Assembly (NCBI RefSeq): GCF_009765985.1
Contig: NZ_LMUM01000031.1
Coordinates: 1-55,941 of the forward strand
DNA: 55,941 nucleotides
From: Acidobacterium sp. S8
Lineage (GTDB): Bacteria > Acidobacteriota > Terriglobia > Terriglobales > Acidobacteriaceae
Direction: 5' to 3'
In this document: piece after piece, positions 29,199 through 49,715 of the stretch
Numbering within the stretch: the stretch's first letter is position 1
Layout: every line of letters begins with the position of its first letter
Translations under genes and position numbers: made by a program
Notes under the pieces: generated by a model
The model's input: only the letters and a program-made list of their open reading frames with translations
What the model was told of the DNA's origin: nothing
The model's database searches: none

Positions 29199-29370
29199 CT
29201 GCTCCCAAGGAGCAAACTGCCGTATTCCCCGCTGGCTTCTTCTTTGGGTCTCGTCCATTTGCCTCACTTGTACTGGCCGATCCTGATAATGACGCTGCTT
29301 GCCTATATGCGACTTACGCAAACAATTAAAGTGTGGTTTGCTCGGAAGAAACTGGATCTGATGCAGAAGT
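29199..29370 (+). pseudogene. C-terminal fragment of an Mg2+-transporting P-type ATPase (MgtA-like)
   Basis: The stretch SSLGLVHLPHLYWPILIMTLLA followed by YMRLTQTIKVWFARKKL matches the last membrane helix and tail of MgtA-type ATPases (pattern LG-PLP-YWP, LLAY-LTQ-VK-WF-R). No phosphorylation motif or other ATPase domain lies upstream; the preceding bases encode the USP. An ATG at 29094 opens the frame, but the first 35 codons have no likeness. This is the end of a deleted gene. Confidence 0.6.
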
Positions 29371-29629
29371 ATGATTCGATCACGCTTTCACTCCCGCGAA
29401 ATAACGGAGTCGATCCCAGTGCTATGCGACGCGAATCGACATCAGGATGTGGAAAGTAACGTGCGAGCAATCAGAATGTTAGCCCAAGGATCGAAACGCC
29501 CGTGCAAGGACCTCCATCACTGAATTTATAATCTCTTTTGAAGATTCCCCGATTTACTCAGATCGGTTGCGGTCGCGTAGCAATTCTGGATTCTCCTCGC
29601 CAAGACCGCATTCGGGAGGGCCATTTCAG

Positions 29630-30283
29630 ATGACAAAGCTAAACACAGCCTTCGATGTCTTCGGCTTTCTGGCGAAAGCTGGGCTAGGACGAAGGATTAT
29701 TCAACTAAAACCAAAGCAGGCCTTCTTTTCGCAGGGCAATCCATCTGACTCCGTCTTCTATCTTCAAAAGGGCCGCGCACAACTTACAGTTGTTTCGAAA
29801 AATGGTAAAGAGGCGACGATCGCGCTGCTCTCCGTCGGTGACTTCGTTGGCGAGGAGTCGATTGCCGGAGTGATCGGTCTTCGGCTGGCGACGGCCACCG
29901 CGATTACCGCCTGTACAGCTCTCAAGATAGAGCGGGAAGAGATGCTACGCGCGCTGCACGAAGAGCATGCATTCTCCGACTTATTCTTAAAGTTTCTGCT
30001 CGCACGCAGCATGCGAACCCAGGCTGATCTTGTCGATCAGCTTTTCAACTCCAGTGAAAAGCGTCTGGCAAGAATTCTTCTGTTGATGGCCGAGTTTGGT
30101 AAGCCCGGAGAACCAGAAACACTCATACCGAAGATCACGCAGGAAACGCTGGCGGAGATGATCGGAACTACTCGATCCCGCGTCAGCTTTTTCATGAACC
30201 GCTTTCGCAGCATGGGATTTATTGAGTACAACGGCGGCATCAAGGTTCACAAGTCGCTGCTCAATGTCATTCTGCACGACTGA
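29630..30283 (+). CDS. Crp/Fnr-family transcription regulator (copy 1)
   Basis: 217 aa. Cyclic-nucleotide-binding fold with FFSQGNPSDSVFYLQKGRAQLTVVSKNGKEATIALLSVGDFVGEESIAG (about 27-75), a dimer helix (LLARSMRTQADLVDQLFNSSEKRLARILLL) and a Crp-type helix-turn-helix (ITQETLAEMIGTTRSRVSFFMNRFR). The four cysteines of FNR are absent, so no iron-sulfur oxygen sensor. An in-frame ATG at 29567 was rejected; GGGAGGG precedes 29630. A near-identical paralogue lies at 48411-49142, and each copy is followed by a receiver gene, so this pair was duplicated. Confidence 0.92.
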   Translation: MTKLNTAFDVFGFLAKAGLGRRIIQLKPKQAFFSQGNPSDSVFYLQKGRAQLTVVSKNGKEATIALLSVGDFVGEESIAGVIGLRLATATAITACTALKIEREEMLRALHEEHAFSDLFLKFLLARSMRTQADLVDQLFNSSEKRLARILLLMAEFGKPGEPETLIPKITQETLAEMIGTTRSRVSFFMNRFRSMGFIEYNGGIKVHKSLLNVILHD

Positions 30284-30368
30284 ATACGGTTTGCGAAGTC
30301 CCGGTGGGTACTCATTCCGCGAGAACTATCGGGCTGAATTGACAGCAGCCAATCAACAGGCGGGCAAT

Positions 30369-30449
30369 GTGAGCAAAATTGAGCAGTATGAAGATTCGCG
30401 GGGTGGAATACTGCAACTCCGAGCTAGCGATACGATGCACGGAGAATGA
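30369..30449 (+). CDS. Short ORF (26 aa) between regulator and receiver
   Basis: GTG-started frame encoding VSKIEQYEDSRGGILQL and nine further residues, stopping seven bases before the ATG of the receiver gene. Alone it would be dismissed, but almost the same beginning occurs at 33680 (VSKIDQYEDERSGIL), and a decayed version sits at the same place in the second regulator-receiver pair (49154). It could be a leader peptide coupled to the receiver's translation, or the conserved N-terminus of a deleted gene. Confidence 0.35.
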   Translation: MSKIEQYEDSRGGILQLRASDTMHGE

Positions 30450-30452
30450 CAT

Positions 30453-31133
30453 ATGATGCCCAACACAAAAGTAAAGCTCCTCATCGTTGATGACGAGCCG
30501 TCGATTCGAATGTCACTGTCGCAAATCTTCATCGCCTCTGGAAATAGTGTGCGATCTGCGGTAGACGGATTCTCTGCACTGAATGAGATCCGGCAGGAAA
30601 CTCCCGAGATCCTTCTATCGGACCTCAATATGCCTGGGATGTCGGGCTTCGAATTGCTCTCAGTGGTGCGACGACGGTTTCCCGCGATCCAGGTAGTCGC
30701 CATGAGCGGCGCGTTTTCCGGCGATGGCGTACCGCCCGGTGTAGCTGCCGACGCTTTTTACGAAAAAGGTACCGATGCGCGTTCCTTGTTGCAGATTGTA
30801 AAAACCATGTCCGAGATGGAGCGTCCGCCGTCTTTCGAACGGCCCAATACGCTGGCGCCCATCTGGATTCCACGGAACGGGCATGACCCTTCCGGAGAGG
30901 AATATGTCATGATCGCCTGTCCCGAGTGCCTGAGGACCTTCCCACAGGTCTTCGGTAATGGCATCCATACTATCTACGAAACAGGTTGTGTCTATTGCCA
31001 CGGTCTGATTCCCTATGCCATCGTCCAGCCGACAGATCCGGTGACCGGACAGACCTCCAGCGAAACCCAGGTACTGGAGCGCCAACATCTCAAGGGGTAC
31101 CAGATTTCCGGTAGAGGTGAAGAAGAAGCATAA
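30453..31133 (+). CDS. Single-receiver response regulator with C-terminal Cys pairs
   Basis: 226 aa. The receiver (about 6-125) has the acidic pair in LLIVDDEPSIR, phospho-acceptor in EILLSDLNMPGMSGFELL, the switch serine in VVAMSGAF and a lysine in FYEKG. After a linker, a C-terminal region contains CPECLRTFPQ and ETGCVYCHGLIPY, two C-x-x-C pairs about 30 residues apart that look like a zinc ribbon. No DNA-binding or enzyme domain is recognised. A second ATG at 30456 is equally possible. Downstream of Crp/Fnr copy 1; the paralogous pair at 48-50 kb has a broken version. Confidence 0.88.
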   Translation: MMPNTKVKLLIVDDEPSIRMSLSQIFIASGNSVRSAVDGFSALNEIRQETPEILLSDLNMPGMSGFELLSVVRRRFPAIQVVAMSGAFSGDGVPPGVAADAFYEKGTDARSLLQIVKTMSEMERPPSFERPNTLAPIWIPRNGHDPSGEEYVMIACPECLRTFPQVFGNGIHTIYETGCVYCHGLIPYAIVQPTDPVTGQTSSETQVLERQHLKGYQISGRGEEEA

Positions 31134-31421: not shown

Positions 31422-31517
31422 CCAATGAATATGTCACGTACCGTGCACAGAATCTGTTCTCAATGGCTCATAGTTCTGTCTCGATTTGCCCAACAGTCGT
31501 CGAATAAGCAGCAGCCT

Positions 31518-31720
31518 ACTGCATCAAGCAAGACCGATCTGACGGTATTGCCGCTGCCTACTCCGAGATTCACGGGTGTGATCGGAAAAACTTACAAAAG
31601 ATTCGAAGAAAGCGTGGCCTCTGGTGCCGATGCCGCCAGGCAGCTCGTTGACCAATCCTCGATAACGCAGCCGAGAAAGGCCGACGCCGAACTTCGGGGT
31701 TACGATCAGGGACATTCCGC
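31518..31720 (+). pseudogene. N-terminal fragment of an arylsulfatase
   Basis: In one frame the sequence reads TDLTVLPLPTPRFTGVIGKTYK, and the next frame continues DSKKAWPLVPMPPGSS. Joined, these match the start of bacterial arylsulfatases (pattern VLP-P-P-F-GVIG-TYKDS--AWP---PP-GAPN). The join is at the AAAA of TACAAAAGATTC (near 31600), a one-base shift. The sulfatase catalytic motif (C/S-x-P-x-R) is not present downstream. A short relic only. Confidence 0.5.
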
Positions 31721-31727
31721 GGATACA

Positions 31728-32612
31728 TCACACACTGAGAACGGGGCAAGGTGACTCGCGAATGATTGCACAAAGATCAGACCAGGCGCGAGAGAAGTTG
31801 CCTCTTTCACGTCCACGGCCCACAACAATCAAGTCTGCCGCTTCTTCGATCGCCACGCGCCGTATGCCTTCTGGTGTGGCGCCCTCCAGGACCCGCACAC
31901 TGGTGTCCTCAACCATTTCTCCGCCACCAGACCGTACCGCCTGATCATAGGTGTCGCTGACTGATTGGGCCGAATGCTGTCTGTCATGTTTGTTGCTGGA
32001 TGGTTCGATGTGTAACAAGCACAGTTTTGCTCCATAGGATTGGGCGAGAAAGGCAGCCACCTTGAGAAGAGCTTCTGCCTCAGAGTTGAGATCGATGGCA
32101 CAGATGATCGAACGGTATTCACTGGGCCGGGCCAATGCAGAATCAGACGCATGTACGCTGGTCAGGACAGGACAGGCGAGATCGTGAAGCACCTTTGTTG
32201 TAACCGATCCCAGTAAAAGACGACGGAATCTTCCAAGACCTCTTGTGGGCATTACGATCAGATCCGTATTCTCATGTTGCGCAACCCATTCAATCACTGT
32301 GGCTGGTTCGCCATCTTCAATTCTTGTCGTTTGGACCACACCTTTGAAGTGCGTGCGTGAAAACTCCTGTAGATGCGCTTCGCGTTGTTGGCGCAGTTCA
32401 TGGAGTGCCGGGGTGTAAGGTATCGCGACACTTTGAAAGTCGCCCATGTCATCGAAGCGAGGAGCCAAAATATACCCGGGTACAAAATTGAAGGCATTCA
32501 ACACAGTTATGGTGGCGCCGAACCGCTGGGCCATCTCACTTACATAGGGAACCATGGCCGTGGTTGCCGGAGAAAAATCGACCGGAAAGAGGATTCTGCG
32601 GAAAGGCATCAT
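31728..32612 (-). CDS. Tandem universal stress protein (UspA family)
   Basis: 294 aa, two Usp domains. Domain 1: FRRILFPVDFSPATTAMVPYV at the N-terminus and LIVMPTRGLGRFRRLLLGSVTTKVLHDLACPVLTSV, with the full G-x2-G-x9-G-S ATP-binding loop. Domain 2: EYRSIICAIDLNSEAEALLKV and a final loop LIVVGRGRERGNFSRAWSDLCAIIRESPCPVLSV, which departs from the ATP consensus. An adjacent ATG gives one residue less. It is transcribed opposite to the other genes of the region. The order of intact and degenerate nucleotide loops is the same as in the USP at 28138. Confidence 0.92.
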   Translation of the reverse strand: MMPFRRILFPVDFSPATTAMVPYVSEMAQRFGATITVLNAFNFVPGYILAPRFDDMGDFQSVAIPYTPALHELRQQREAHLQEFSRTHFKGVVQTTRIEDGEPATVIEWVAQHENTDLIVMPTRGLGRFRRLLLGSVTTKVLHDLACPVLTSVHASDSALARPSEYRSIICAIDLNSEAEALLKVAAFLAQSYGAKLCLLHIEPSSNKHDRQHSAQSVSDTYDQAVRSGGGEMVEDTSVRVLEGATPEGIRRVAIEEAADLIVVGRGRERGNFSRAWSDLCAIIRESPCPVLSV

Positions 32613-33141: not shown

Positions 33142-33306
33142 ATGTCTACTCAAGCGGAAAGAACAGATGCACCGATGCCCGAGAACTCCAAATCCGTCGA
33201 GACTCCAGCGGACAAAAGGTTGAACCGCGCCGCAGAAGAAGCTGCAGAGAAAGCTGGAAAAACGGAACAACGTTACGATCGGGACCACAATATCTTTACG
33301 AAGTAG
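33142..33306 (+). CDS. Small hydrophilic protein, 54 aa
   Basis: Starts MSTQAERTDAPMPENSKSVE and ends in AEEAAEKAGKTEQRYDRDHNIFTK. AGGAG lies nine to ten bases upstream of the ATG. The protein is acidic-basic mixed, Ala/Glu/Lys-rich, probably helical, without cysteine or membrane segment. An overlapping frame from an ATG at 33135 is longer but has an unnatural Arg/Ser-rich composition. I know no function; its place beside USP genes suggests a stress-related small protein. A hairpin follows. Confidence 0.55.
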   Translation: MSTQAERTDAPMPENSKSVETPADKRLNRAAEEAAEKAGKTEQRYDRDHNIFTK

Positions 33307-33679: not shown

Positions 33680-33775
33680 GTGTCCAAAATTGATCAGTAT
33701 GAAGACGAGCGCAGTGGAATACTTTTCATGCCATGGTGTGGTGCCTCTGGGAACCCGGCCCGATTCTCAGGCTAG
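33680..33775 (+). other. Second copy of the SKI-QYED short ORF
   Basis: GTG-started frame whose first 15 residues (VSKIDQYEDERSGIL) match the short ORF at 30369. The first 26 bases differ at only three positions; the similarity then fades after GGAATACT. It continues FMPWCGASGNPARFSG to a TAG. No receiver gene follows here. Confidence 0.35.
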
Positions 33776-33945: not shown

Positions 33946-34928
33946 ATGACGAAGAACAGATCGTTTCAGGGATTGATATTCATCGTAATTCTAGGCGTTG
34001 GCGCAGCACTCTCTTATGCCATGTATAGAGTGTCAGCAAACTTCGCAAGCATATGGATTGTTGCTTGCGCATTCGTTCTTGCCTTTGTTGCCTCTTCGGC
34101 CATTCAGGTTGCGGATCAATGGAGCAAGGCAGTTGTCCTGCGTCTAGGTAAGTTCCACGCTCTTGAGGGACCGGACTATTTTTGATTATTCCGCTCGTCG
34201 ACACCATTCCCTACTGGATTGACATTCGCGTCCTCACAAGTTCGTTCAAAGCGGAAAAGACACTGACGAAAGACACGGTACCCGTGGATGTAGACGCAGT
34301 GCTGTTTTGGAAAATCGTAGACCCCAAAAAGGCGGCGCTCGATGTAGCGGACTACCAGAGCGCGATCAGTTGGGCTTCGCAGACGGCTCTTCGTGATGTG
34401 ATCGGCAAGACCATGCTTTCGGACATGCTCGAAGGCCGGGACAAGATCAGTGGTGTGCTACAGACGATCATTGATGAGCGCACTGAGCCGTGGGGCATTA
34501 ACGTCATTTCGGTAGAAGTCAAGGATGTATTGATCCCCCCGGCCCTGGAGAATGCGATGTCGATGCAGGCTCAAGCCGAGAGAGAGCGCCAAGCCCGCGT
34601 GATTCTGGGTGACTCGGAACGTCAGGTGGCAGAGAAATTTGGCGAAGCGGCCAAGACCTATGCGAACGATCCAGTCGCGTTACATCTGAGAGCCATGAAC
34701 ATGCTGTACGAAGGCTTAAAGCAAAACTCCACGATTGTTATCGTTCCCAGCTCCGCAGTCGAAACCATGCAACTGGGTGGGCTTGCCGGGTTGACGGCAC
34801 TGACCATGGGACTAGGCCAGGAGCGTGCGATCAGAGAGAGGGAAAGCCAGCTCGTAACCAGCAATGGCTCTAAGCCAGTTCCGGTAGGCGAGTCGTTGCA
34901 AATCCCGCCTATCCCCGAGGCGGCATGA
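33946..34928 (+). pseudogene. Slipin/stomatin-like SPFH protein, frameshifted
   Basis: Frame 1 (33946-34185) has a charged start, two hydrophobic helices and the SPFH opening VADQWSKAVVLRLGKFHALEGP. Frame 2 continues with IIPLVDTIPYWIDIRVLTSSF, AEKTLTKDTVPVDVDAVLFWKI, ALRDVIGKTMLSDML, and EAMS-like ENAMSMQAQAERERQARVI to 34928. One base is missing near 34172; adding one after GGACC restores EGPGLFLIIPLVD, the family consensus. The full product would be about 327 aa, an inner-membrane scaffold protein. The partner NfeD gene is not here. One indel only, so assembly error is possible. Confidence 0.85.
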
Positions 34929-34979: not shown

Positions 34980-35192
34980 ATGAGTAAGAGCACTCACACT
35001 CACCACGAACAGGGACCGCACCCAAAAGGCATCCACCATGACCATCGTCCGTACTGGAAACGCGCGCACCGTGATTGGCGTTTCTGGGTAGCCGTCTTCT
35101 TCATCAGCGCGGCCTTGTTCATTTATGTGACGAGTGTCGATTTGTCGCTGGTGCCTAGCAGTCACCCGCACTCCGTTCCCGTCAGTCAATAG
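34980..35192 (+). CDS. Small His-rich single-span membrane protein
   Basis: 70 aa. Histidine-rich hydrophilic start (THTHHEQGPHPKGIHHDHRPYW), one helix (FWVAVFFISAALFIYV), and a short tail with two more histidines. GGGAG sits five to six bases before the ATG. Nine histidines in 70 residues suggest metal binding, but no family is known to me. It follows the slipin gene by about 50 bases and may share its transcript. Confidence 0.6.
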   Translation: MSKSTHTHHEQGPHPKGIHHDHRPYWKRAHRDWRFWVAVFFISAALFIYVTSVDLSLVPSSHPHSVPVSQ

Positions 35193-35312: not shown

Positions 35313-36320
35313 ATGACCGAGATGATTTTGTATCCGCTACGATTCGAACCGATCTATCAATACCGGCTTTGGGGCGGACGGCGTTTGGCCGCTCTGCTCA
35401 CCGCGCCGCTGCCAAACGATGACCCCATAGGCGAAGCGTGGATACTCAGCGACCGCCAGGACCACTCGAGCAAAGTTGCCAATGGACCGCTTCAGGGACA
35501 GACCCTCGGTCAACTGATGGAGCAGTCACAGGAGCAATTGATGGGAAGGCTGGCTCAGCGCTTCCAACGATTCCCTTTGCTGCTGAAGTTTCTCGATGCG
35601 CATCAGATGCTCTCAGTCCAGGTGCACCCTGGATATAAGCACGCAGGTATATCACCGGCGGTCGAGACCGTGAAGACCGAAGCGTGGGTCGTGCTGGAGG
35701 CGGCAAAAGAAAGCCGAATCTATGCAGGCCTGAAGCCTCGCACAACTGCGGAAATCCTTCGGCAATCGGTGACGAACGGAACGCTGGCAAATCAGCTTGT
35801 ATCGATCAGCCCAAAGCCAGGAGACGCGGTATTCATCCCGGCAGGGACGGTTCACTCTCTAGGCGACGACGTTGTTGTGTTCGAGGTTCAGCAGAACAGT
35901 GACACGACGTTTCGCCTGTACGACTGGGGTCATATTGACGCGAAGACAGGCGAGTCGCGGGCACTCCAGGTCGATCAGGCGCTTGCCTGCATCGATTTCG
36001 CAAATGGTAGGGCTGGCCTGGTAACTCCTGTAGCGGAGTCGGCAACGCCGGTGGGACGCGAGACGCTCTTTGACTGCGACGCATTCTGGTTATGGCGTGT
36101 GCGGGGTAGATCGCCATTCACCGTCGGTGCAACAGGCGTGCCGCGCGTGCTGGTATGCACTGAGGGAACAGGGCAGATCGAATACCACGTCGATACCTAT
36201 ACAGTCGGAAAAGGTGAAGTATGGCTCCTGCCGGCGGCTGTTGGAGCATGTACATTTCGCCCTGGCAGTGCAGTCAATTTATTAGAGATCGCGATACCCG
36301 CACATTCCGCAAGCGACTAA
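35313..36320 (+). CDS. manA: Mannose-6-phosphate isomerase, class I
   Basis: 335 aa cupin-type zinc isomerase. YQYRLWGGRRLAALL and GEAWILSDRQDHSS open the protein; zinc ligands are expected in LSVQVHPGYKHA (Q and H), VKTEAWVV (E) and FIPAGTVHSLG (H); an FEVQQNSDTTFRLYDW motif follows, typical of the short bacterial PMI form. It interconverts mannose-6-P and fructose-6-P in the cytosol. An ATG three codons in is an alternative start; neither has a strong ribosome site. Next genes are a phosphomannomutase-like HAD enzyme and a GH130 phosphorylase, so the trio can move mannose units into glycolysis. Confidence 0.92.
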   Translation: MTEMILYPLRFEPIYQYRLWGGRRLAALLTAPLPNDDPIGEAWILSDRQDHSSKVANGPLQGQTLGQLMEQSQEQLMGRLAQRFQRFPLLLKFLDAHQMLSVQVHPGYKHAGISPAVETVKTEAWVVLEAAKESRIYAGLKPRTTAEILRQSVTNGTLANQLVSISPKPGDAVFIPAGTVHSLGDDVVVFEVQQNSDTTFRLYDWGHIDAKTGESRALQVDQALACIDFANGRAGLVTPVAESATPVGRETLFDCDAFWLWRVRGRSPFTVGATGVPRVLVCTEGTGQIEYHVDTYTVGKGEVWLLPAAVGACTFRPGSAVNLLEIAIPAHSASD

Positions 36321-36384: not shown

Positions 36385-37173
36385 ATGAAGAAGCTGATAG
36401 TTTTCGATCTCGACGGTACACTCGCCAAAAGCAAATCGTCTCTCGATAGTGAAATGTCGACACTTCTCCACGACCTTCTCAGCGTCGCCAAAGTGGCTGT
36501 CATCTCAGGAGGCGACTGGCCCCAGTTTGAAAAACAACTACTCTCTCATCTGCCTCATGACAAAGGACTGGCTAATCTATCCATCCTTCCGACATGCGGG
36601 ACCAAGTTCTTCCGATACTCCGGAGACTGGAAGAAGATCTATTCGGAGGATTTCACGGCTGACGAAAAGAAGAAAATTATCGATGCTCTGAATAAAGCAT
36701 TCCAGGTCGCGGGCTTCAAAGTCGAAAAGGTCTGGGGAGAAGTCATTGAAGACCGCGGAAGCCAGATTACGCTCTCCGCATTGGGTCAGCAGGCTCCATT
36801 GGCGGAAAAGATAAAGTGGGACCCGGATTTCGCGAAGCGGAAGAAGATCAAAGCAATTCTCGATCCTTTGATTCCCGGCTTCTCCGTCCGGCTTGGCGGC
36901 GCAACCTCCATCGATGTCACCAAGCCCGGGATCGACAAGGCCTACGGGATTCGAAAGCTGCGAGACATTCTGGGCATTTCACTGAAAGAGATGATCTATG
37001 TTGGCGACGCCTTGTTTCCGGGAGGAAACGACTACCCGGCGGAGCAGGTAGGAGTGATTTCTATACCGGTTCGGGGGTCCGAGGACACGAAGCGGGTGAT
37101 CGAAGCAATCATCGCTTGTTTAGGCGGCGATCAGCAGGCTGACTTTCACCTGGGATCAGATGAGCGAATTTAA
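36385..37173 (+). CDS. HAD-IIB phosphomannomutase-like enzyme
   Basis: 262 aa. HAD motif I is FDLDGTLA, motif II is AVISGGDW, and the late acidic motif is YVGDALFPGGNDYP. The central cap has VWGEVIEDRGSQITLSALGQQAPL and KIKWDPDFAKRKKI, then GGATSIDVTKPGIDKAYGIRKL, which closely follow the eukaryotic-type alpha-phosphomannomutases that convert mannose-1-P to mannose-6-P. Some bacterial relatives may be phosphatases. GGACAGGA precedes the ATG. It overlaps the GH130 gene by 14 bases and follows manA, which supports a mannose-1-P to mannose-6-P step. Confidence 0.85.
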   Translation: MKKLIVFDLDGTLAKSKSSLDSEMSTLLHDLLSVAKVAVISGGDWPQFEKQLLSHLPHDKGLANLSILPTCGTKFFRYSGDWKKIYSEDFTADEKKKIIDALNKAFQVAGFKVEKVWGEVIEDRGSQITLSALGQQAPLAEKIKWDPDFAKRKKIKAILDPLIPGFSVRLGGATSIDVTKPGIDKAYGIRKLRDILGISLKEMIYVGDALFPGGNDYPAEQVGVISIPVRGSEDTKRVIEAIIACLGGDQQADFHLGSDERI

Positions 37174-38719: not shown

Positions 38720-39592
38720 TTATTTTTCCTCCAGCTGCTTGCGGATTAACTGCAATTCCGCCCGGCGCTTCGCAGTGGTTTTTGGATAGGCCATTTTGAG
38801 GCCTTCGAGCGCGTTAAGAACGATTCCCGAAACGATCAGGCGGGCGTTCTCCTTATCGTCGGCCGGTACAACGTACCATGGTGTGTGATGGGTGCTTGTC
38901 GCCTGTAAGCAAGCCTCATACGCTTCAACGTAAAGCTTCCAGTATTTCCTCTCATGAATGTCCGCGAGGCTGAATTTCCAGTTCTTGTCAGGCTCATCGA
39001 TCCGGGCGAGGAATCGCTTTCGCTGCTCATCTTGCGAAAGGTGAAGAAATATTTTGACGATCTTCGTGCCGTTGCGATCGAGATGCCTCTCCATGTCTAC
39101 GATGGAGTCGTACCGTTCCTGCCAGGTGGTTTTCTCGTTGCGCAATTCCGCCGGAAGTCCCTGGCTGCGGAGAATCTCCGGATGCACGCGAACCACCAGC
39201 ACTTCCTCGTAATAGGAACGATTGAAGATGCCGATCCGTCACCGCTCGGGAAGCCGACAGGTCGAGCGCCAGAGAAAATCGTGTTCCAATTCCTCGGCGC
39301 TCGGTTGCTTGAAGCTGAATACCTCGCAGCCTTCAGGATTGACCCCGGACATGACGTGCCGGATCGCGCCGTCCTTGCCAGCCCCGTCCATACCCTGAAA
39401 GATCAGCAGCAGTGCATAGCGGTTCGAAGCGTAGTGAAGGTGCTGCAGTGAACTCAACTCTTCAACATGCTTTTCCAGAAGTTCCTGATACTTCTCCTTC
39501 GATTTGTACACTGGCTTCACAATCGTCGGCCACTTCGAGAGCTTGACCTTTTTCCCGGACGGAACACGGAAGTCCTTCGCATCGATTTTCAT
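38720..39592 (-). pseudogene. Polyphosphate kinase 2 (PPK2), interrupted by one TGA
   Basis: Starts at 39592 after an ideal AAGGAG. Part 1: [21 protein letters not shown], Walker A in [22 protein letters not shown], and [18 protein letters not shown] at 39241-39239 (- strand) stands where family members have glycine; the same frame then goes on [43 protein letters not shown] and the end, as in intact PPK2 (about 290 aa). PPK2 makes nucleoside di- or triphosphates from polyphosphate. No frameshift is present: one base (GGA to TGA) separates it from an intact gene. The C-terminal part could restart at an internal start but would lack Walker A. Confidence 0.88.
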
Positions 39593-39634
39593 TTTTTCTC
39601 CTTCCGTGTCATTGGCTGCATCCGGCAAGCGCTC

Positions 39635-42373
39635 TCACGCGACCTTCGGGGGCACTGACGGATCGCTGCGAGTCTCGCGCTCTGCCTCCAGCCAGTGGTG
39701 ATCCTGCTGGCTTTCGCCTTGGACGCGCTCCTGGTAGAGTTCATAGGCTCGTGCAGCGATCTGAGGCGTAAGGTCGACTGGCGTCTTCTTCGCCAATAGC
39801 GGGACTTTCGCCGGGTCAAAGATTCGATAGGCGAGCAGTTTCACTCGGTCATTCACAAGGAACCACACCAGAGCGTAGCCCCAGACGAATCCTGCCCACT
39901 TCCAGCCGAGGGGCGTCATGAACAGCCCATACACGGCAATCAGAGTCGCCACCGTTTGCGTACCGAGTACGGCTATCCACAGAATCCGTGCCGGGCGTAT
40001 CGACCAGAATGGGCCGCGTGTGCGTGTCAGGAAAATCGTCAGATGTCCTGCCACCGACAGCTTCAGGTACATCAGCGTCTGGATGTGCCCGCGGTCGAGG
40101 TGAAAGACACGCTCACCAAGATAGAAGAGCCCGAACGCGGCGATAACGCCGATGACGCCGAGCACGGTAGAGATCCCCAGTACCATGCGCATGTTCCAAG
40201 CCTCGGGCTTGTCCTTGTAATGAACGTTGTCATAGGCGATGGACAGAATCGCCCCGTCATTGAGCAGCGCCAGCATCACGATCATCACTGCTGTGACTGG
40301 ATAGAAGTTGAATACCAGGATCGCGAGAGTCATGAAGAGCAGCACGCGCAGCGTTTCGGCGATGCGGTACATGGCATAGCTGTTCATCCGCTGAAAGATG
40401 CGCCGGCTCTCCTTGACTGCGTCGATGATCACTGAGAGCCCGGAAGCGAGCAGCACGATTGAGGCCGCAGCCCGCGCCGCGTCCGTCGCGCCGGAAACCG
40501 CGATGCCGCAGTCTGCCTTCTTGAGCGCCGGTGCGTCGTTCACTCCGTCGCCGGTCATCCCAACGATGTGGTCGCGCTTCTGCAGCACATCTACGATGAA
40601 GTACTTATGTTCCGGGAAGACCTGGGCGAACCCGTCTGCTTTTTCGATGGACTCAGCGGTCTGTGTACTCGCTTGCTGTTTGGTGTCGCCCAATCCACTG
40701 GCATCGAGGATGTTCGTGCCCAGCCCCAGTTGCCGGGAAGTCTCCCGAGCGATCGCGATCTGATCACCGGTAACCATCTTGACGTTGACGCCCATCTGCC
40801 GTGCGCTGGCGATGGTTGCTTTAGCCTGCTCGCGCGGTGGATCGAACAACGGCAGCACCCCGGCGAACTGCCACTTGCCTTCTTCATCGGCGCGGGCCAC
40901 GCCGAGTGAACGGAAACCTCGTCCCGCGAATTCATTAACAGCTTTCTCGACGGCGGACTTCACCTCATCCTTGTTCGTCGACATTTCCAGAATGACCTGC
41001 GGCGCCCCCTTCGTCACAAAGAATTGTTTTCCGTCCCCGCCCTTGACGGTGGCTTCGGTGCGCTTATGCACCGGGTCGAACGGCTGGAAATGCAGCACCT
41101 GATAGCCTTTCAACGCTTTATCGTCTTTCATACCGCCTATCACGGCCAGGTCGATGGTGTCTTTGTCTTCCGCACGAGAGGCGAGTGCCGCCCAGAGAAT
41201 CAGCTGGTCGCCAGGAATGCTGTTTACGCTGAACGGATCGCCCAGCGTCAACTTGTTCTGGGTCAGGGTGCCGGTCTTGTCCGAGCAGAGCACATCCACT
41301 CCCGCCAGTTCTTCAATGGCTGATAACCGGGTCACAATCGCTTCTTTTTTCGCCAGCAGCCGCGCACCCACGGCCATGGTTACCGACAATACTGTAGGCA
41401 TGGCCACAGGGATCGCGGCCACCAGAAGCACCAGGCAGAATTCCAAAGTAGTGAGGACTTTATCGCCACGGAAGAGTGCTACAACGAGGATCAACGCGAC
41501 CAGCGCCACCGCGAGGATGATCAGGTAGTCGCCAATCTTCAGCACGGCACGTTGAAAATGGCTGACGGTGTGGGCTTCCTGCACCAGTTGTGCGGTCTTG
41601 CCAAAGTAAGTGTTCGCACCGGTGGCGTATACCATCGCGTCGATCTCGCCTTGACGGAGGATAGATCCCGAAAACACCGCGCCGCCAGGTTTGCACGTGA
41701 CGGGCAAAGATTCTCCCGTCAATGCCGATTGGTCAACCTCCACTGGATCGCCCGCCAGGAGGCGCGAATCCGCCGGGACAATGTCTCCCAGCCGCAGACG
41801 TATCACGTCGCCGGGCACCAGTTCACTTGCCTTCGGAGTAGTCCACTTTCCATCTCGTTTGGCGCGGGCATTGATCGCCAGCTTGGCCTTCAGCGCTGCG
41901 ATGGCGTTGCCCGCCTGGTGTTCTTCCCAGAATGCGACCACCGCGTTCGAACAAAGCAGAAGAAGAATGATAAAAAAATCCAGCCAGTGCCGCACAACTC
42001 CCGAGAGGATCACTGCCGCTTCGATCATCCACGGAATCGGGCCCCAGCAATAGGAGAGAAACTTCAGAAACTCATTGGTTTTCTTTTCCGCAATTTCATT
42101 GGGCCCATATTGTGTCAGCCTCTTCTGAGCCTCGGCCTGGGTGAGGCCGTCCGGTGTTGACTCCAGCTTCTTCTGCAGATCCGGCATTGGAATGGACTTG
42201 AGGTCGTCCTTGGACGTGGACTTTGCGTCAGGCTCCAAATCTTCTTTAGCCTGAGTTTCTGAATCGGACTTCGTCCCGTTCTTTGCCGGAGGCTTCGACA
42301 GGATCTTCGCCACAGGCTGAGAATCCTGCTTAGACTCATGCTTGGATTGAGGGGTTTCGAGATCTGGGCTCAT
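39635..42373 (-). CDS. P-type proton ATPase (plasma-membrane P3A type)
   Basis: 912 aa. A 60-residue Lys/Ser/Asp-rich, low-complexity tail precedes the cation-ATPase N-domain (GLTQAEAQKRLTQYGPNEI). Next come membrane helices, the actuator loop with TGES (about 219-222), PVAMP (about 322-326), phosphorylation site SDKTGTLTQNKLTLG (D365), MVTGDQIAIARE, and hinge [19 protein letters not shown]. The size, KTNEFLKFLSYCWGPIPWMIE start and C-terminal layout match plasma-membrane H+-ATPases, which export protons using ATP. AGGAGAG precedes the ATG. The stop lies 42 bases before the PPK2 start on the same strand, so the two are probably co-transcribed. Confidence 0.92.
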   Translation of the reverse strand: MSPDLETPQSKHESKQDSQPVAKILSKPPAKNGTKSDSETQAKEDLEPDAKSTSKDDLKSIPMPDLQKKLESTPDGLTQAEAQKRLTQYGPNEIAEKKTNEFLKFLSYCWGPIPWMIEAAVILSGVVRHWLDFFIILLLLCSNAVVAFWEEHQAGNAIAALKAKLAINARAKRDGKWTTPKASELVPGDVIRLRLGDIVPADSRLLAGDPVEVDQSALTGESLPVTCKPGGAVFSGSILRQGEIDAMVYATGANTYFGKTAQLVQEAHTVSHFQRAVLKIGDYLIILAVALVALILVVALFRGDKVLTTLEFCLVLLVAAIPVAMPTVLSVTMAVGARLLAKKEAIVTRLSAIEELAGVDVLCSDKTGTLTQNKLTLGDPFSVNSIPGDQLILWAALASRAEDKDTIDLAVIGGMKDDKALKGYQVLHFQPFDPVHKRTEATVKGGDGKQFFVTKGAPQVILEMSTNKDEVKSAVEKAVNEFAGRGFRSLGVARADEEGKWQFAGVLPLFDPPREQAKATIASARQMGVNVKMVTGDQIAIARETSRQLGLGTNILDASGLGDTKQQASTQTAESIEKADGFAQVFPEHKYFIVDVLQKRDHIVGMTGDGVNDAPALKKADCGIAVSGATDAARAAASIVLLASGLSVIIDAVKESRRIFQRMNSYAMYRIAETLRVLLFMTLAILVFNFYPVTAVMIVMLALLNDGAILSIAYDNVHYKDKPEAWNMRMVLGISTVLGVIGVIAAFGLFYLGERVFHLDRGHIQTLMYLKLSVAGHLTIFLTRTRGPFWSIRPARILWIAVLGTQTVATLIAVYGLFMTPLGWKWAGFVWGYALVWFLVNDRVKLLAYRIFDPAKVPLLAKKTPVDLTPQIAARAYELYQERVQGESQQDHHWLEAERETRSDPSVPPKVA

Positions 42374-42859
42374 AATGAATCTCTCCTGGTCTGCTTGACT
42401 CAGTGACTTCGAGTCCGTTGATGGAGGCGCTCACACCCTTGTCGTGGGGAGGTTTGATCCTGGTCGAAGCTCTGTTTTGCGACCCAGGTGTGGGTCTCGG
42501 GCTGCTACTAAACTGTTCGCACCGGTTGAACATGTTCCTTAGAAGTAGGCCCGCGCCGATAACCTTTCCTCCACGGACGTTGTATGGAGTATCCCTTCGT
42601 CAGGGTGAGAGATGCTGTGCATTATTGCTCACAATGAGCCGAGCGAGTCAGTTGGAAGTCTGCAATGGCTGCAAGATGCCGAACTGTAGTTGGAACGACC
42701 GAAGCTGGCCTGTCAGGGATACTGCATTCCCGGACGCTACCATCGGCCAGATAGGACGACAAAGCTGGTCAATTGTGCACAGAACTCAAATCTTTTGCTG
42801 TTTAGGATTGAGCCGTTAAGTACTGAAATTCGCCTTGCGCGTTAGGTTCGGTACGCCCT
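42374..42859. other. Intergenic stretch, no gene seen
   Basis: Nearly 490 bases upstream of the H+-ATPase (-) and of the HAD relic. No supported coding sequence; it should hold the ATPase-ppk2 promoter. Confidence 0.4.
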
Positions 42860-43161
42860 CAAATCGTTGTGGTTAGCGATGAATCGCGCGAGGTGAATTC
42901 AGCTCTTCCTGTTTGGTTCACATGCGCAAGCCTGACCTCGATATCTTTCGGCTTGCTCTCGACATTGCCCAGACATCGGCGGCGCAGGCCATCTTCATCG
43001 ACAACAGGCCGATGCTCGTTCAGATTGAGGAACGCCTCGATATTCGAAGCATTCTTCATGTCGATTCCGAGCTCACATATGCCAAGCTGCCTCTTCGGGT
43101 TGCAGACGCATCCAGAACGCTAGCGATACACAAATTCAACCGTACTGTTTCACGCACATAG
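42860..43161 (+). pseudogene. C-terminal fragment of a HAD-family hydrolase
   Basis: One frame reads VVSDESREVN, another continues MRKPDLDIFRLALDIAQTSAAQ, AIFIDNRPMLVQIEERLDIRSILH. Together they match the second half of YihX-like HAD hydrolases (S-E-RELN, then VGLRKPD--IYRLAL--A-, -FIDDR--LVE-A--LG---I-H). The N-terminal DxD motif is missing and the halves are out of frame. A relic next to the phosphoketolase promoter. Confidence 0.6.
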
Positions 43162-43178: not shown

Positions 43179-45626
43179 ATGATGCCGACTGACATGCTCA
43201 CCACCGAGGAACTGCCCCACGAGACACCCGAAGCGTTAGGCGAAGAAGATTCCATGAAGGAGAGCCGCACGCTCGATCCGGAGTCGCTTCGCAAAATGAA
43301 TGCCTATTGGCGCGCTGCCAATTATGTGTCGGTGGGCCAGATCTATCTCTACGAAAATCCTCTGCTGAAGGAGCCGTTGAAGCTCGGACATGTGAAGCCG
43401 CTGGTGGTCTCCCACTGGGGCACGACGCCGGGTCAGAACTTCATCTATGTTCACCTGAACCGGGCCATCAAGAAGTACGACCTGAATATGTTCTACATCG
43501 CGGGCCCCGGCCATGGCGGCCCGGCGATTGTGGGCAACGTCTACCTCGAAGGCACTTGGAGCGAAGTTTATCCGAACGTCACCCAAGACGAAGCCGGGCT
43601 CAAAGAGCTCTTCAAGCAGTTTTCCTTTCCTGGCGGGATATCCAGCCATGTTGCGCCGACGACGCCTGGATCGATTCACGAGGGCGGTGAGCTGGGTTAC
43701 TCGTTGAGCCACGCATTTGGTGCAGCGTTCGACAATCCCGACCTGATTGTTGCCTGCGTCATCGGTGACGGCGAGGCAGAAACGGCGTCCCTGGCGACTT
43801 CGTGGCAGTCCAACAAGTTCCTCGATCCAAAGACCGATGGAGCTGTGCTGCCGATCCTGCACCTGAACGGTTATAAGATCAGCAATCCAACCGTCCTCTC
43901 ACGCATCGAGCATGAGGAACTGGATCAATTCCTAAGGGGCTGCGGCTGGACGCCTTACTTTGTGGAGGGAGATGAGCCGGAGAAGATGCACGAACTTATG
44001 GCCGCCACCCTCGACAGGGTCATCGAAGACATCCAACGTTTCCAAAGTGAGGCCCGCAGCAACAACGACATGACTCGCCCACGCTGGCCCGTGATCGTCC
44101 TCAAATCGCCCAAAGGCTGGACGGGACCAAAGGTTGTCGACGGCCTGCAGATCGAGGGGACATTCCGAGCCCACCAGGTTCCGCTGCTGGTCGATCCCCA
44201 GCATCCCGATCACGTCAAGCTCCTCGAGGACTGGATGAAGAGCTACAAGCCTGAAGAGCTCTTCGATGAAAAAGGACGACTCATCCAGGAACTGGCCGAC
44301 CTGGCGCCAATTGGCACTCGGCGGATGGGCGCTAATCCACACGCTAACGGCGGCATTCTTCTTCACGATCTGCACATGCCGGACTTCCACGACCACGCGG
44401 TCAAGGTAACTTCACCAGGTGCAGTGCAGATTGAAGACACGCTCGTGCTGGGTTCGTTCTTGCGCGATGTTGTTAAGTTGAATCAGGACAAGCATAACTT
44501 CCGCGTCTTCGGTCCGGATGAAACAGTCTCGAACCTCCTGCAAGCAGTCTTCGAGGTCACCAATCGTCAGTGGGACGCGCGCGAATCCTGCAACGACGAG
44601 TTCCTCGCGCCTGCGGGCCGCGTTCTCGACTCCATGCTGAGCGAGAACCAGTGCGAGGGTTGGCTGGAAGGATATCTGCTGACCGGACGCCACGGGCTGT
44701 TCAATAGCTATGAAGCCTTCATTCGCATTATCGACTCGATGTTCAGCCAGCATGCAAAGTGGCTCAAGGTATGCCGGGAACTGCCTTGGCGGCGCGATAT
44801 TTCATCGCTCAACTATCTGCTCGCCTCCCATGTCTGGCAGCAGGACCACAACGGATTCACGCACCAGGATCCCGGCTTCCTCGACCACGTCATCAACAAG
44901 AAGGCCGATATCGTGCGCTGTTACCTTCCCGCCGACGCCAACTGCCTGTTGTCCGTCTTCGATCACTGCCTACGCAGCCGGAATTACGTCAACGTGGTGG
45001 TTGCAGGAAAGCACGCGCTTCCCCAATGGTTGACGATGGATGAGGCGGTCGTGCATTGCACGGAAGGCGTCGGCATCTGGCAATGGGCCAGCAACGATCA
45101 GGACAGTGATCCGGATGTGGTGATGGCCTGTTGCGGAGACACGCCTACCCTGGAGATTCTTGCCGCCGTCTCCATCCTTCGCGCACATCTGCCTGAGCTG
45201 AAGATCCGTGTGGTCAATGTCGTCGATCTGATGAAGCTCCAACCCAGCACGGAACACCCGCACGGACTGACCGAGAAGGATTACGACTCTCTTTTCACAA
45301 AAGACAAACACATCATCTTTGGATTTCATGGATATCCATGGCTGATCCATCGGCTGACCTATGCCCGCACCAACCGCAACCTGCACGTGCGGGGTTATAA
45401 GGAAGAGGGCACGATCACGACCCCCTTTGACATGAGGGTTCAGAACGACCTGGACCGCTTCCACCTGGTTATGGACGTGGTGGACCGGGTGCCGGATCTG
45501 GGCTCCAAGGGCGCGTATCTGAAGCAGCAGATGCGGGACAAGCTCATCGAACACAAACACTACATCGACGCTCACGGCCAGGACATGCCGGAGATACGGA
45601 ACTGGAAATGGAACGCCACCAAGTGA
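43179..45626 (+). CDS. xfp: Xylulose-5-P/fructose-6-P phosphoketolase
   Basis: 815 aa, the usual length. ThDP-enzyme features: [92 protein letters not shown], and the cofactor motif [32 protein letters not shown] and the C-terminal [14 protein letters not shown] are family hallmarks. The enzyme splits xylulose-5-P or fructose-6-P with phosphate to acetyl-P plus glyceraldehyde-3-P or erythrose-4-P. AAGGAG precedes the paired ATGs. It overlaps the aldolase gene, so xfp-fba-tpi form one operon. A matching acetate kinase or phosphotransacetylase is not in the window. Confidence 0.95.
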
Positions 45627-46702
45627 ATACACACTCTCTTGAAGCTACCGCCAAGAGGATGGTCGCCGACGACAAGGGACTGATCGCGATCGATGAAAGC
45701 ACTGGAACCTGTAACAAACGATTTGCGAAGTGGGGGATTCCGCAGACTGCGGAGACACGCCGCAAATATCGCGAGCTGATCGTAAGCACTCCCGGCCTTG
45801 GCGAGTCGATCAGTGGCGCAATCCTCTATGACGAAACCATTCGGCAGCAGAAGGACGATGGCACCCCGTTTGCGAAAGCGCTCGTCGACGTGGGAATCAT
45901 TCCCGGCATCAAGATCGACACCGGAGCGAAGGAGATGGCCGGCTTCCCTGGCGAGAAGATCACCGAGGGTCTAGATGGACTGCGCGCACGTCTGGCGGAG
46001 TATGCGCAGATGGGCGCACTCTTCGCCAAGTGGCGGGCGGTGCTTGCCATCGGCGACGGCATTCCGAGCGAAGGATGCATCGAGGCCAACGCGCACGCGT
46101 TAGCCCGCTATGCGGCGTTGTGCCAGGAAGCCGGGTTGGTCCCCGTAGTCGAGCCAGAAGTGCTCATGGACGGCGCTCACACCCTCGAAACATGTGGCGA
46201 GGTCACGGAAAAAGTGCTGAGAGCCGTATTCAAAGAACTCTACTCGCAACGCGTAAAGCTGGAAGGATTGATCCTGAAGCCCAACATGGTGCTTCCAGGA
46301 TCGACATGCCCAAAGCAGGAGACAGTGGATGAAGTAGCCGACGCTACGGTGAGGTATCTACTGCGAGGCGTGCCCGCTGCTGTGCCAGGGATTGCATTCT
46401 TGTCGGGCGGCCAAACCGGCGAACTTGCTTCTGCACGTCTGAATGCCATGAACGTCAGGGTCAAGTCGCGGCTGCCTTGGGCATTGGCGTTTTCGTTTGG
46501 GCGCGCCATCCAGGAACCTGCCTTAGAGATATGGCATGGCGACCAAAGCAACCTGCAGGCGGCACAGCAAGCCCTTTACCATCGAGCCAGGTGCAACCGG
46601 GCTGCGCGCCTTGGCGAATACAACGCCACAGTTGAGGCGGATCACAGTGAAAATGCGCCGCTCGTAGTTTCATCGTTAGAGCTCGCAGGGAGTGCACGAT
46701 GA
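45608..46702 (+). CDS. Fructose-bisphosphate aldolase, class I
   Basis: 364 aa of the animal/plant-like class I type. [78 protein letters not shown], and the Schiff-base lysine K224 in [15 protein letters not shown] are all present; the tail [21 protein letters not shown] is also standard. It cleaves fructose-1,6-bisphosphate to triose phosphates without metal. It overlaps the end of xfp by 19 bases and the start of tpiA by four, so translation is coupled. The typical C-terminal tyrosine is replaced by a different end (LAGSAR). Confidence 0.95.
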
Positions 46703-47499
46703 AACCGGGCCAGCGCCGGAAGGTTGTTGTCGGCAACTGGAAGATGCATACGACCGCCGCGGAGGCCACGCAGTTGGCTCAGGGAGTCGTAGATGGTGTC
46801 GGTAATGAGGACGGGGTATCCGTCATTCTCTGTCCGCCTTTCCCCTATCTGGCCCTAGTCGGGGCGATCCTCAAGCGCAGCCGCATTACGCTCGGGGCGC
46901 AGAACATGTACCCCGAAAAGAAAGGTGCATTCACCGGCGAAGTCAGCCCGACGATGCTGCTCGACGTGGGCTGCAAGTACGTCATCCTGGGACACAGCGA
47001 GCGTCGGCACAAGATGGGAGAATCGGATGCGTTCATCAATCAAAAGGTTCGGTTTGCCCTGGCTTCCGGCCTCGACGTGATTTTGTGCGTCGGCGAGACT
47101 CTGGAGCAACGTAAGGCCAACCAGACGGAAGCGATGCTCGACCGGCAACTCAACTCGGGATTAGCCGACGTGCCGGTCGCTGACTTGCCTCGCATCAGCA
47201 TCGCCTACGAGCCGGTGTGGGCGATCGGCAATGCTGACCACCATGCCACCCCGCAGCAGGCTGAGGATGCGCATGCCATCCTTCGAGGAAGATTCTCGAA
47301 GCTATTTGGCAAGGAGGCGGCTGAAGCAGTCACGATACAGTACGGCGGTAGCGTCGAGCCGGACAACGCCGCCGCATTTCTTAGCCGTAATGGCGTGGAC
47401 GGTGCTCTGGTCGGTGGGGCCAGCCTGAAAGCCGACGAATTGCTTGCCATTGTCCGCGCTGGCATCAATGAGGGACGAGTAGAAATGCAGCCGACATGA
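46699..47499 (+). CDS. tpiA: Triose-phosphate isomerase
   Basis: 266 aa. Catalytic residues are all visible: VVGNWKMH (N13, K15), ILGHSERR (H99), and IAYEPVWAIG (E171), then the phosphate-binding VTIQYGGSVEPDNA and DGALVGGASL. It interconverts dihydroxyacetone-P and glyceraldehyde-3-P. ATGA overlap with the aldolase stop. As part of xfp-fba-tpi it links hexose and triose pools around the phosphoketolase. This may be a second copy besides the usual gapA-pgk-tpiA set; the window cannot tell. Confidence 0.96.
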   Translation: MKPGQRRKVVVGNWKMHTTAAEATQLAQGVVDGVGNEDGVSVILCPPFPYLALVGAILKRSRITLGAQNMYPEKKGAFTGEVSPTMLLDVGCKYVILGHSERRHKMGESDAFINQKVRFALASGLDVILCVGETLEQRKANQTEAMLDRQLNSGLADVPVADLPRISIAYEPVWAIGNADHHATPQQAEDAHAILRGRFSKLFGKEAAEAVTIQYGGSVEPDNAAAFLSRNGVDGALVGGASLKADELLAIVRAGINEGRVEMQPT

Positions 47500-47687
47500 A
47501 ACGACCCTTGCAAGTTGGTTGAGTCTGATTCGACGGTTCGTTCACTGTTCCGTATTTCGCCGCCTTGTTGCGCCGCCAACTCTGTTATCGCGAGCGCGAG
47601 TCTGAGATCTCTCTGCCGACAGTCTTGCTCGCACATACAACTCTGGATCGCAGCCGGACTGAATCCCGACGTCGGCTCCCGAAGAAC

Positions 47688-48115
47688 TGCGGAACCAGCT
47701 TGGCATCGCCATCGCTGGAAAGGTCTATGAGAGTTATCGCTCGGTGCTCGACTCGGCTCGCTGGCAGCGCATCTTCAACGCCGTCGCACGCGCCCAGCGC
47801 CTGATTTTTGCCAGCGCCGGGACCAAGGACCCCAAAGCCCCCCGACACGCTGTACATCCGGCCCTTGCCGCGCCCTTCACCGTGAACACCATGCCTGAGG
47901 CCACGTTGAAAGCCCTCGCCGATCACGGGCTATCGGCGAAATCCTGCTTGCTCATATTGAGAATCCGCTGGAGAAATTCACCAAGGCGGGAATCGACACC
48001 GACGCTCTTGGGCTCGCACCTCCAGGACGAGGGGGCTGCGTCGTTCTTCAAGTCGTGGAAAGACCTGCTGGAGTGCATCGCGTCCAAGAGTGCAGCGCTC
48101 AAGGCAGCGTGAATC
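47688..48115 (+). pseudogene. C-terminal part of transaldolase, multiple indels
   Basis: Reads EELRNQLGIAIAGKVYESYR, VLDSARWQRIFNAVARAQRL, IFASAGTKDPKAP; then DTLYIRP in another frame after a run of six C (near 47840); then LAAPFTVNTMPEATLKALADHG back in the first frame; then IGEILLAHIENPLEKFTKAG in a different frame; and DEGAASFFKSWKDLLECIASKS at the end. These are the consecutive last third of a bacterial transaldolase, with at least three small indels. The Schiff-base region and everything before are absent. Being downstream of tpiA, it was probably once the fourth gene of the sugar-phosphate operon. Confidence 0.8.
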
Positions 48116-48410
48116 GGGCAAACTGGGGCTGACAATCTGCCACCCCATCCTTCGTGTCTGGAGGATGAAGCAGGTTTCTACGCGATGTCCCGGAATGAGC
48201 AAAATAGAACATACACAGTGTTCCCCCGAGGGCGATAATGCCTGAGGCAAGAGTATAAATGCGCTTAGAGATGACGTATTTCCCTCTCGTTTCGGAACCG
48301 GCTCACGAATTTTGAGATATGGGCCACAATGCATTTGTGTACCGGGTCTGGGCCTTCATACAGAACGATCAATCGTTACCCGTAAACGTATGCGGAAGAG
48401 AGGCACTCAA

Positions 48411-49142
48411 ATGAATACCGACAACAGTATCTTCGACCCCGCTGACTTCTTGGCGAAGACAGGGCTGGGACGTAGGATCGTTAAATTGAAGCCAAAGCAA
48501 GTCTTCTTTTCGCAGGGTAATCCCGCCGACTCCGTTTTCTATCTGCAGAAGGGCCGTGCAAAAATCACGGTGGTTTCGGAAAGAGGGAAAGAAGCTACGA
48601 TCACGCTTCTCTCGTCCGGAGACTTCGTCGGTGAGGAATCCATTGCAGGAGCCGTCGGACTTCGTATGGCGACGGCTACTGCAATCACTGCATGTACAGG
48701 TCTTAAGATCGAGCGAGCGGAGATGATCCGTGTAATGCACGAGGAACACGCGTTCTCCGATCTTTTTTTGAAGTTCCTGCTAGCCCGGAGTATGCGCACC
48801 CAGGCTGATCTGGTCGATCAACTCTTCAATTCCAGCGAGAAGCGTTTGGCGAGAATCCTCCTTTTGATGGCGGAGTTTGGCAAACCAGGTGAACCGGAAA
48901 CGATGATTCCGCAGATCACGCAGGAGACGCTGGCGGAGATGATCGGCACCACGCGCTCCCGAGTCAGCTTTTTCATGAACCGGTTTCGCAAAATGGGTTT
49001 TATCGAATACAACGGTCGCATCCATGTGCATAAGTCACTGCTCAATGTGATCCTGCACGATCAATTGCCCGAGCAGAATGCAGAAAAGCCGCCGATCGTA
49101 GGCTTGCCGGAAGCTCAACCAAGGGCTGCGGGACGGGCTTAG
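48411..49142 (+). CDS. Crp/Fnr-family transcription regulator (copy 2)
   Basis: 243 aa, from an ATG after GAGG; an in-frame ATG at 48312 is less likely. Nearly identical in the core to the regulator at 29630: FFSQGNPADSVFYLQKGRAKITVVSERGKEATITLLSSGDFVGEESIAG, LLARSMRTQADLVDQLFNSS and ITQETLAEMIGTTRSRVSFFMNRFRKM. It has an extra C-terminal tail of about 25 residues (QLPEQNAEKPPIVGLPEAQP). No FNR-type cysteine cluster. The helix-turn-helix recognition helix is the same in both copies, so they probably bind the same sites. Followed by the dead receiver copy. Confidence 0.92.
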   Translation: MNTDNSIFDPADFLAKTGLGRRIVKLKPKQVFFSQGNPADSVFYLQKGRAKITVVSERGKEATITLLSSGDFVGEESIAGAVGLRMATATAITACTGLKIERAEMIRVMHEEHAFSDLFLKFLLARSMRTQADLVDQLFNSSEKRLARILLLMAEFGKPGEPETMIPQITQETLAEMIGTTRSRVSFFMNRFRKMGFIEYNGRIHVHKSLLNVILHDQLPEQNAEKPPIVGLPEAQPRAAGRA

Positions 49143-49153
49143 TACAAGCAAAA

Positions 49154-49207
49154 GTGAACAGAATCGACGTTGGTGGGATGGGATACTTGCTTCAGGGGGT
49201 GCTTTGA
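49154..49207 (+). other. Decayed third copy of the short leader-like ORF
   Basis: GTGAACAGAATCGA aligns with the start of the short ORF at 30369 (GTGAGCAAAATTGA), and GGATGGGATACTTGCTTCAG with its GGGTGGAATACTGCAACTC; about nine bases between them are missing. It lies between regulator copy 2 and the receiver pseudogene, exactly as in the first pair. Confidence 0.3.
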
Positions 49208-49223
49208 TGCCTGGGAAAGGCAC

Positions 49224-49715
49224 ATGATGCCCAATGCAAAAGTAAAGCTCCTTATCGGGGATGACTAGGCGTCGCTTCGAGCCTCGTTGTCTCTGATCTT
49301 TACGCATTTGGACATAGTGTCTGGTCGGCCGAAGATGGTTTCTCCGCCCTCGCTGAGCTGCGGAATGATGTTCCCGACATCCTTATCTCCGACCTCAACA
49401 TGCCGGGTATATCTGGCTTTGAATTCCTCTCCGTAATCCGCCGTCGCTTCCCCGCAATTCAGGTGATCTCGATGAGCGGAGCGTTCTCAGGCGACAGTGT
49501 GCCACTCGGTGTTGCAGCGGATGTCTTCTACGAAAAGGAAAGCAATCCGGGCACTATGTTGGAGACGGTGAGAGCCATGGCTCAGATGGAGCACGCGGCT
49601 ATCCAGCATCCGAATACGCCGGCGCCTATCTGGATTCCGAAAAATGGGCACGATCAAGCCGGGAAGGAGTATGTGATCGTTGCCTGCTGCGATTGTCCAA
49701 CCTGCAGAGATAATT
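49224..49715 (+). pseudogene. Receiver-domain response regulator (copy 2), inactivated
   Basis: Begins MMPNAKVKLLIGDD, then a TAG at 49266-49268 where copy 1 has Glu; a small deletion follows, then frame changes, and GHSVWSAEDG leads into DGFSALAELRNDVPDILISDLNMPGISGFEFLSVIRRRFPAIQV. From 49400 an open frame continues MSGAFSGDSVPLGVAADVFYEK, PAPIWIPKNGHDQAGKEYVIVACCDCP and then diverges, so the Cys-rich end of copy 1 (30453) is lost. Several independent lesions: a true pseudogene, the sister of the intact receiver. Confidence 0.85.

Follow-up and report, generated by a model that had tools for sequence, protein, structure and literature searches.

The window analyzed here is the stretch of DNA formed by bases 1-55,941 of the 83,596-base contig C36 of Acidobacterium sp. 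S8 (genome of 5.44 Mb in 38 contigs, 99.99% complete; C-numbers are contigs of this genome). Between about 29 and 50 kb it holds genes of energy metabolism and stress response together with remnants of further genes. A preliminary description had taken this interval for a resident island worn by insertion and deletion. Our comparisons suggest another reading, based on sequence: the region is probably a modular island of energy and stress genes, mosaic and partly redundant, that was acquired horizontally, has been rearranged and is decaying. The apparent horizontal acquisition and the partial redundancy with intact genes elsewhere appear to have been overlooked before. Two kinds of damage support decay. 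Some genes are truncated at rearrangement borders and carry multiple lesions, and three genes carry a single lesion each.

Gene remnants and single lesions

We searched the window with 1452 open reading frames (ORFs) from 90 loci of relatives and then aligned chosen full-length relatives to it. Five remnants have full-length counterparts. The remnant at 29217-29348 (+) matches, at 55% identity (E 9e-10), the C-terminal ~44 residues of an MgtA-like P-type ATPase, which by its resemblance we take to be a Mg2+ transporter. A GlgX-like debranching enzyme survives on the minus strand in pieces and in two frames; 38308-38696 matches residues 527-769 of an 812-residue protein of locus L033, and a weaker match extends down to 38197. 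L033 belongs to a Granulicella-labelled metagenome-assembled genome (MAG) and is the nearest relative by phosphoketolase (xfp).

The other three remnants lie on the plus strand. A HAD hydrolase remnant (42844-43089) has lost its 5' end. Its alignment covers 42860-43089, where the main piece equals residues 136-199 of 216; a 14-residue piece stands in another frame (E 0.15), and 46 bases are lacking between the pieces in a DNA alignment to L033. A transaldolase C-terminus (47635-48112) matches residues 227-373 of 375 at 47672-48103, with an internal unaligned stretch, and a further 15-residue piece at 47635-47679 matches weakly (E 0.41). Finally, a second response regulator (49224-49696) has an in-frame stop at 49266-49268 and frame shifts near 49300, and its match ends at residue 159-165 of 226.

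A sixth fragment, listed earlier as the start of an arylsulfatase near 31509-31640, found no support. There is no match in plasmids, and among 20 relatives there are only two matches (E 0.05 and 0.07). One of them lies in L171; at the locus of the other, L172, nothing among the listed ORFs is sulfatase-like, judged by eye.

The alignment coordinates bear out that the fragments are cut at different points and lie on both strands. We also looked for the possibility that they are conserved small genes, and rejected it because relatives carry ordinary full-length genes. Because the fragments are real and have full-length versions in relatives, the earlier claim that the set used to be larger is right.

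Three further genes align nearly full length to intact relatives except for one inactivating change each, as previously described. The slipin gene (33946-34928, +) has a frame change at ~34182, in a run of five T. The GH130 phosphorylase gene (37160-38270, +) has a frame change at 37698-37702. The polyphosphate kinase gene PPK2 (38720-39634, -) has an in-frame TGA at 39239-39241 (-). It is highly improbable that any of the three is still made by programmed frameshifting or stop read-through. The slipin change at a T run before a stop, and the single TGA in an otherwise sound PPK2 frame, would suit such recoding. However, the frames are uninterrupted in both relatives with slipin (L035 and L037), in 13 of 14 with PPK2 and in seven of nine with GH130 (the other two are cut by sequence ends), and no inner stop interrupts the PPK2 and GH130 paralogues of this genome.

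Damage in the window and its relatives

To score damage we used 17 island families in 88 other sequences, leaving out genes cut by a sequence end. Eighty of these loci came from genome contigs scanned with three xfp queries (the best 80 of 577 confirmed candidates were kept). The rest are G024, another member of the same family, five plasmid regions and two further relatives. Six of 13 island genes are damaged in the window versus 27 of 329 in the relatives (Fisher p 0.0005). Two loci, L110 and L168, lie on contigs of equal length and are probably one contig; without one of them 26 genes are damaged in the relatives (p 0.0005). As xfp was the bait of the scan, the counts are biased toward intact xfp. 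Without xfp they are 6/12 in the window and 25/242 in the relatives (by subtraction, with no new test).

Among the relatives with at least four families, 11 of 33 hold at least one damaged gene, including stubs of fba (class I fructose-bisphosphate aldolase), PMM, PGM and Cu-ATPase genes. Only L100 (3/5) has a higher damage rate than the window. Stubs are a recurring footprint across the relatives, and the window is among the most worn copies.

What is left of fba or PMM in L110 (12352-12438), L076 (5187-5267), L085, L084 and L040 (6975-7055) is a short 5' stub, of 27-57 codons for fba and 27 for PMM, in most cases beside xfp.

We dropped the low coding fraction of 29-39 kb (0.596 versus 0.851) as evidence, because 0-10 kb (0.645) and 50-56 kb (0.633) are low too.

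Possible sequencing error and the age of decay

The lesions in slipin, GH130 and PPK2 may instead be sequencing or assembly errors, such that only the stubs are truly decayed. We consider this unlikely, but it would weaken the case for recent decay. Each of the three genes has exactly one lesion, that of slipin at a homopolymer run, and where tested (GH130 and PPK2) there is no excess of change. In contrast, a frame-aware coding model found only one unexplained, off-junction frame change and no in-frame stop in 16 stretches of this genome used as control (315,263 bases). Moreover, sequencing error cannot account for the stubs.

The coding model was tuned with lower penalties and retrained on the control, the window and seven island loci. 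It reported two off-junction frame changes in the 55,941-base window, in GH130 and, outside the interval, at 18577. The model is insensitive, missing the slipin, PPK2 and receiver lesions, and at a stricter setting it finds nothing in control or window.

The change near 18577 splits a hybrid histidine kinase gene at 17565-20343 (-), with MHYT, HisKA, HATPase and receiver domains, then receivers and Hpt. Two adjoining ORFs without a Pfam match, 24169-24693 and 24690-25088 (-), are possibly one split gene.

Relative rates were obtained by counting the changes specific to the window copy and those specific to its nearest relative. The HAD stub has 11 changes in the window versus one in the relative, and has therefore long been free of constraint. 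GH130 (22 versus 11) has a ratio near those of the intact H+-ATPase (28 versus 13) and xfp (26 versus 12), and PPK2 has 10 versus 20. Without excess change, these two genes therefore broke recently, or were misread. On these counts decay is of two ages: that of the stubs, with their several lesions, and a recent one in GH130 and PPK2. The ratio of nonsynonymous to synonymous change (dN/dS), proposed earlier as a comparison of intact and broken genes, shows only that the broken genes were constrained through most of their history. It allows no finer reading, as synonymous sites are saturated (pS up to 0.76).

Redundancy

Intact counterparts exist elsewhere in the genome for five decayed families. 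There are two intact copies each of PPK2 and GH130, an intact transaldolase, a 54% identical slipin and, on contig C29, an intact GlgX with a phosphorylase and a second xfp. The intact counterpart of the second receiver is receiver copy 1, inside the window (30453-31133, +; Pfam PF00072). For the H+-ATPase we found no near second copy in the genome (the next is 28% identical), and the window copy is intact.

We propose that the parts duplicating resident functions, that is PPK2, GH130, transaldolase, GlgX, slipin and the second receiver, would be free to decay, and that the unique H+-ATPase and the xfp-fba-tpi operon would persist.

Rearrangement and probable mosaic origin

The gene set around xfp recurs widely. 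Across the 80 kept loci, which carry 15 phylum labels, xfp is 75-91% identical, and around it the same families recur in varied order. In the 88 sequences we counted fba in 56, acetate kinase in 33, H+-ATPase in 28, HAD in 28, PMM in 15, PPK2 in 14, transaldolase in 12, phosphomannose isomerase (PMI) in nine, GH130 in nine and GlgX in eight. Slipin at 40% identity or more occurs in two. The fullest sets include those of L035 and L037.

In L033, the segments HAD-xfp-fba-tpi and GlgX-phosphorylase-PGM end-PPK2-H+-ATPase are convergent, whereas the matching parts are divergent in the window. Among these are an intact H+-ATPase of the plasma-membrane type (39635-42373, -; 81% DNA identity to G024), followed after the HAD remnant by intact xfp (43179-45626, +; 91% to L033), class I aldolase (45608-46702, +) and triosephosphate isomerase (tpi; 46699-47499, +). 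Relative to L033, the start of the HAD gene and most of GlgX are gone from the window. The sequences thus show directly that genes were rearranged and deleted between one arrangement and the other, whichever of them came first.

Hence the earlier claim of repeated insertion and deletion holds in part. Deletion, truncation and rearrangement are seen; repeated insertion found no support, with no transposase or integrase in the scanned ORFs and no empty site in the genus.

The nearest relative is L033 for xfp but G024 for the H+-ATPase, L037 for slipin and PPK2, and L034 for PMM and GH130. These gene-wise relatives suggest that the island is a mosaic, with synonymous sites saturated.

In a quick tree of 89 xfp sequences, the 15 phylum labels need 28 changes (the least possible is 14). 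The six Acidobacteriota-labelled rows need six changes, at least four of them forced by starred branches. The copy on C9 of this genome pairs with congener G003 (100, starred), and the window copy pairs with L033 (100, starred), apart from it. For xfp, the only gene considered here, the inferred phylogeny departs from the host lineage.

A resident, vertically inherited island of the family that is decaying without recent acquisition is quite improbable. Such an island would agree with G024, which has an 81-82% identical H+-ATPase at the DNA level as well as PMM, GH130 and xfp on one strand, and with the presence of xfp in 38 of 61 relatives, including G011 and others of the family. But H+-ATPase DNA is patchy; it is absent from all three congeners (two of them incomplete drafts, 59 and 77%), and one other family member (G024) has a long match among 41 genomes. 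Furthermore, the congeners' xfp is only 62-67% identical and groups elsewhere than the window copy, and the nearest relatives vary by gene and include other phylum labels.

Plasmids carry parts of the gene set in three phyla. Relatives of xfp occur on 208 plasmid records and relatives of the H+-ATPase on 48, nine of which are 60-80% identical. Plasmid unnamed2 of Rhodococcus sp. AQ5-07 has slipin-xfp-aldolase-H+-ATPase. Plasmid unnamed2 of Lichenicola cladoniae has slipin, PPK2, H+-ATPase, tpi, aldolase and xfp, with several insertion sequence (IS) elements between. A Hymenobacter plasmid has acetate kinase-xfp-aldolase, a Caballeronia plasmid has acetate kinase-H+-ATPase-PPK2 adjoining integrases, and a Frondihabitans plasmid has slipin, xfp, a broken aldolase and a broken H+-ATPase.

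On the last of these (L130, 18355-22605), the aldolase has a frame change and the H+-ATPase an inner stop, both unannotated in the record.

Several observations weigh against horizontal acquisition followed by redundancy-driven decay. By Pfam there is no transposase or integrase among 20 ORFs of the interval plus eight main genes, which is not a full scan. In the genus we found no empty site, only scattered matches. GC content is typical, at 0.552 compared with an average of 0.557 in the control. The labels of the many MAGs among the relatives may be in error, and the quick tree came with a warning of long branches. Because the nearest relative differs by gene, the island does not stem from one simple transfer. 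Redundancy alone does not decide decay either, because xfp is intact despite two further copies in the genome.

For the acquired island we suggest entry through plasmid-borne or island-to-island recombination, followed by rearrangement.

Proposed role and comparison with known systems

From the functions of the families, phosphoketolase and aldolase would break sugar phosphates down into acetyl phosphate and triose phosphate, and acetate kinase would then make ATP. Acetate kinase is absent from the interval and present twice elsewhere in the genome. PPK2 would use polyphosphate, and the H+-ATPase would export protons. The module may thus help to maintain ATP and pH under limited respiration, timed by the Crp/Fnr regulator and the receiver.

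More tentatively, a hitherto undescribed modular island that crosses phyla may circulate, in part by plasmid, among peat, lichen and cold-soil bacteria, which would share it as a toolkit for anoxic or energy stress. Its members would be xfp, class I aldolase, acetate kinase, H+-ATPase, PPK2, PMI-PMM-GH130, slipin, HAD, glycogen enzymes and Crp/USP (universal stress protein) genes. Continual reshuffling would leave stubs, with the window as one of the most worn copies. This broader proposal is possible but far from assured.

Decaying acquired genomic islands have a foreign phylogeny, a patchy distribution in the genus and many pseudogenes or stubs. The window is alike in all three. It differs in that no integrase, attachment site, tRNA (there is none in the window) or GC shift was found, and in that its donor pool appears to span many phyla. 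The Rhodococcus and Lichenicola plasmid clusters share slipin, xfp, aldolase and H+-ATPase with the window, and that of Lichenicola also PPK2 and tpi. They are carried by plasmids, in Lichenicola together with IS elements, and in this they differ from the window contig, which is not known to be a plasmid.

A comparison of the ends of C36 gave no sign of a closed circle, as they do not overlap. Its end carries a repeat that is shared with other contigs.

The lxa locus of Burkholderia cenocepacia is described in the main text of two reports as a cluster of USP and metabolic genes, missing in some strains, that is thought to aid persistence without oxygen, with six USPs and BON-type genes (PMC6127331, PMC9104464). 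By these descriptions, homology aside, its proposed role resembles that suggested for the window module. In contrast to its six USPs, the window interval and its edge have two Usp genes, and the words phosphoketolase, acetate kinase and ATPase are absent from the main text of PMC6127331 and PMC9104464. Because the USP count differs and phosphoketolase goes unmentioned there, we do not file the island under lxa. A description of the module was not found among the literature matches listed, a coverage from which subscription journals are mostly missing.

That genes decay in an island that was acquired and is partly redundant is nothing unusual. The interest lies in the donor pool: much the same phosphoketolase and its companions are found on plasmids and in loci with 15 phylum labels, their order varying and with stubs in several lineages. 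If confirmed, this would be a concrete case of central energy metabolism traded across phyla, in which fragments let the order of gain, shuffling and loss be read.

Other features of the interval

The genes described as intact survivors have the expected Pfam domains. At the left edge lies a USP gene with two Usp domains (28138-29085, +; PF00582), and a second USP gene follows at 31728-32612 (-). Crp/Fnr-type regulator copy 1 (29567-30283, +) has a 73% DNA copy at 48451-49686, and copy 2 lies at 48390-49142 (+), before the second receiver remnant. PMI (35313-36320, +) and a PMM-like HAD phosphatase (36385-37173, +) precede GH130, and a Cu-type P-ATPase with HMBD repeats (50180-52435, +) follows the interval. 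The H+-ATPase has a C-terminal DUF2934 match at residues 869-900.

Congener G001 (L184, 3096-4573) holds an intact Crp and receiver pair and further Crp copies; thus the Crp-receiver cassette is multi-copy in the genus. A 44-nt copy of the Crp-receiver spacer at 33680-33723 (+; 82% to 30369-30412) is perhaps the relic of a third copy.

The interval also encodes two small proteins. One of 54 residues (33143-33304, +) matches a small ORF in L033 (50%, E 0.003), and one adjoining PMI (34980-35192, +) is found in relatives too.

Near the right end of the window, 53744-55547 is an 82-89% copy of C4:196-199 kb and an 85-91% copy of two places in congener G003. A repeat at 55850-55916 (96%) is also found at the end of C36 and on three other contigs, C9, C11 and C21, in the first two at or near a contig end; it probably broke the assembly.

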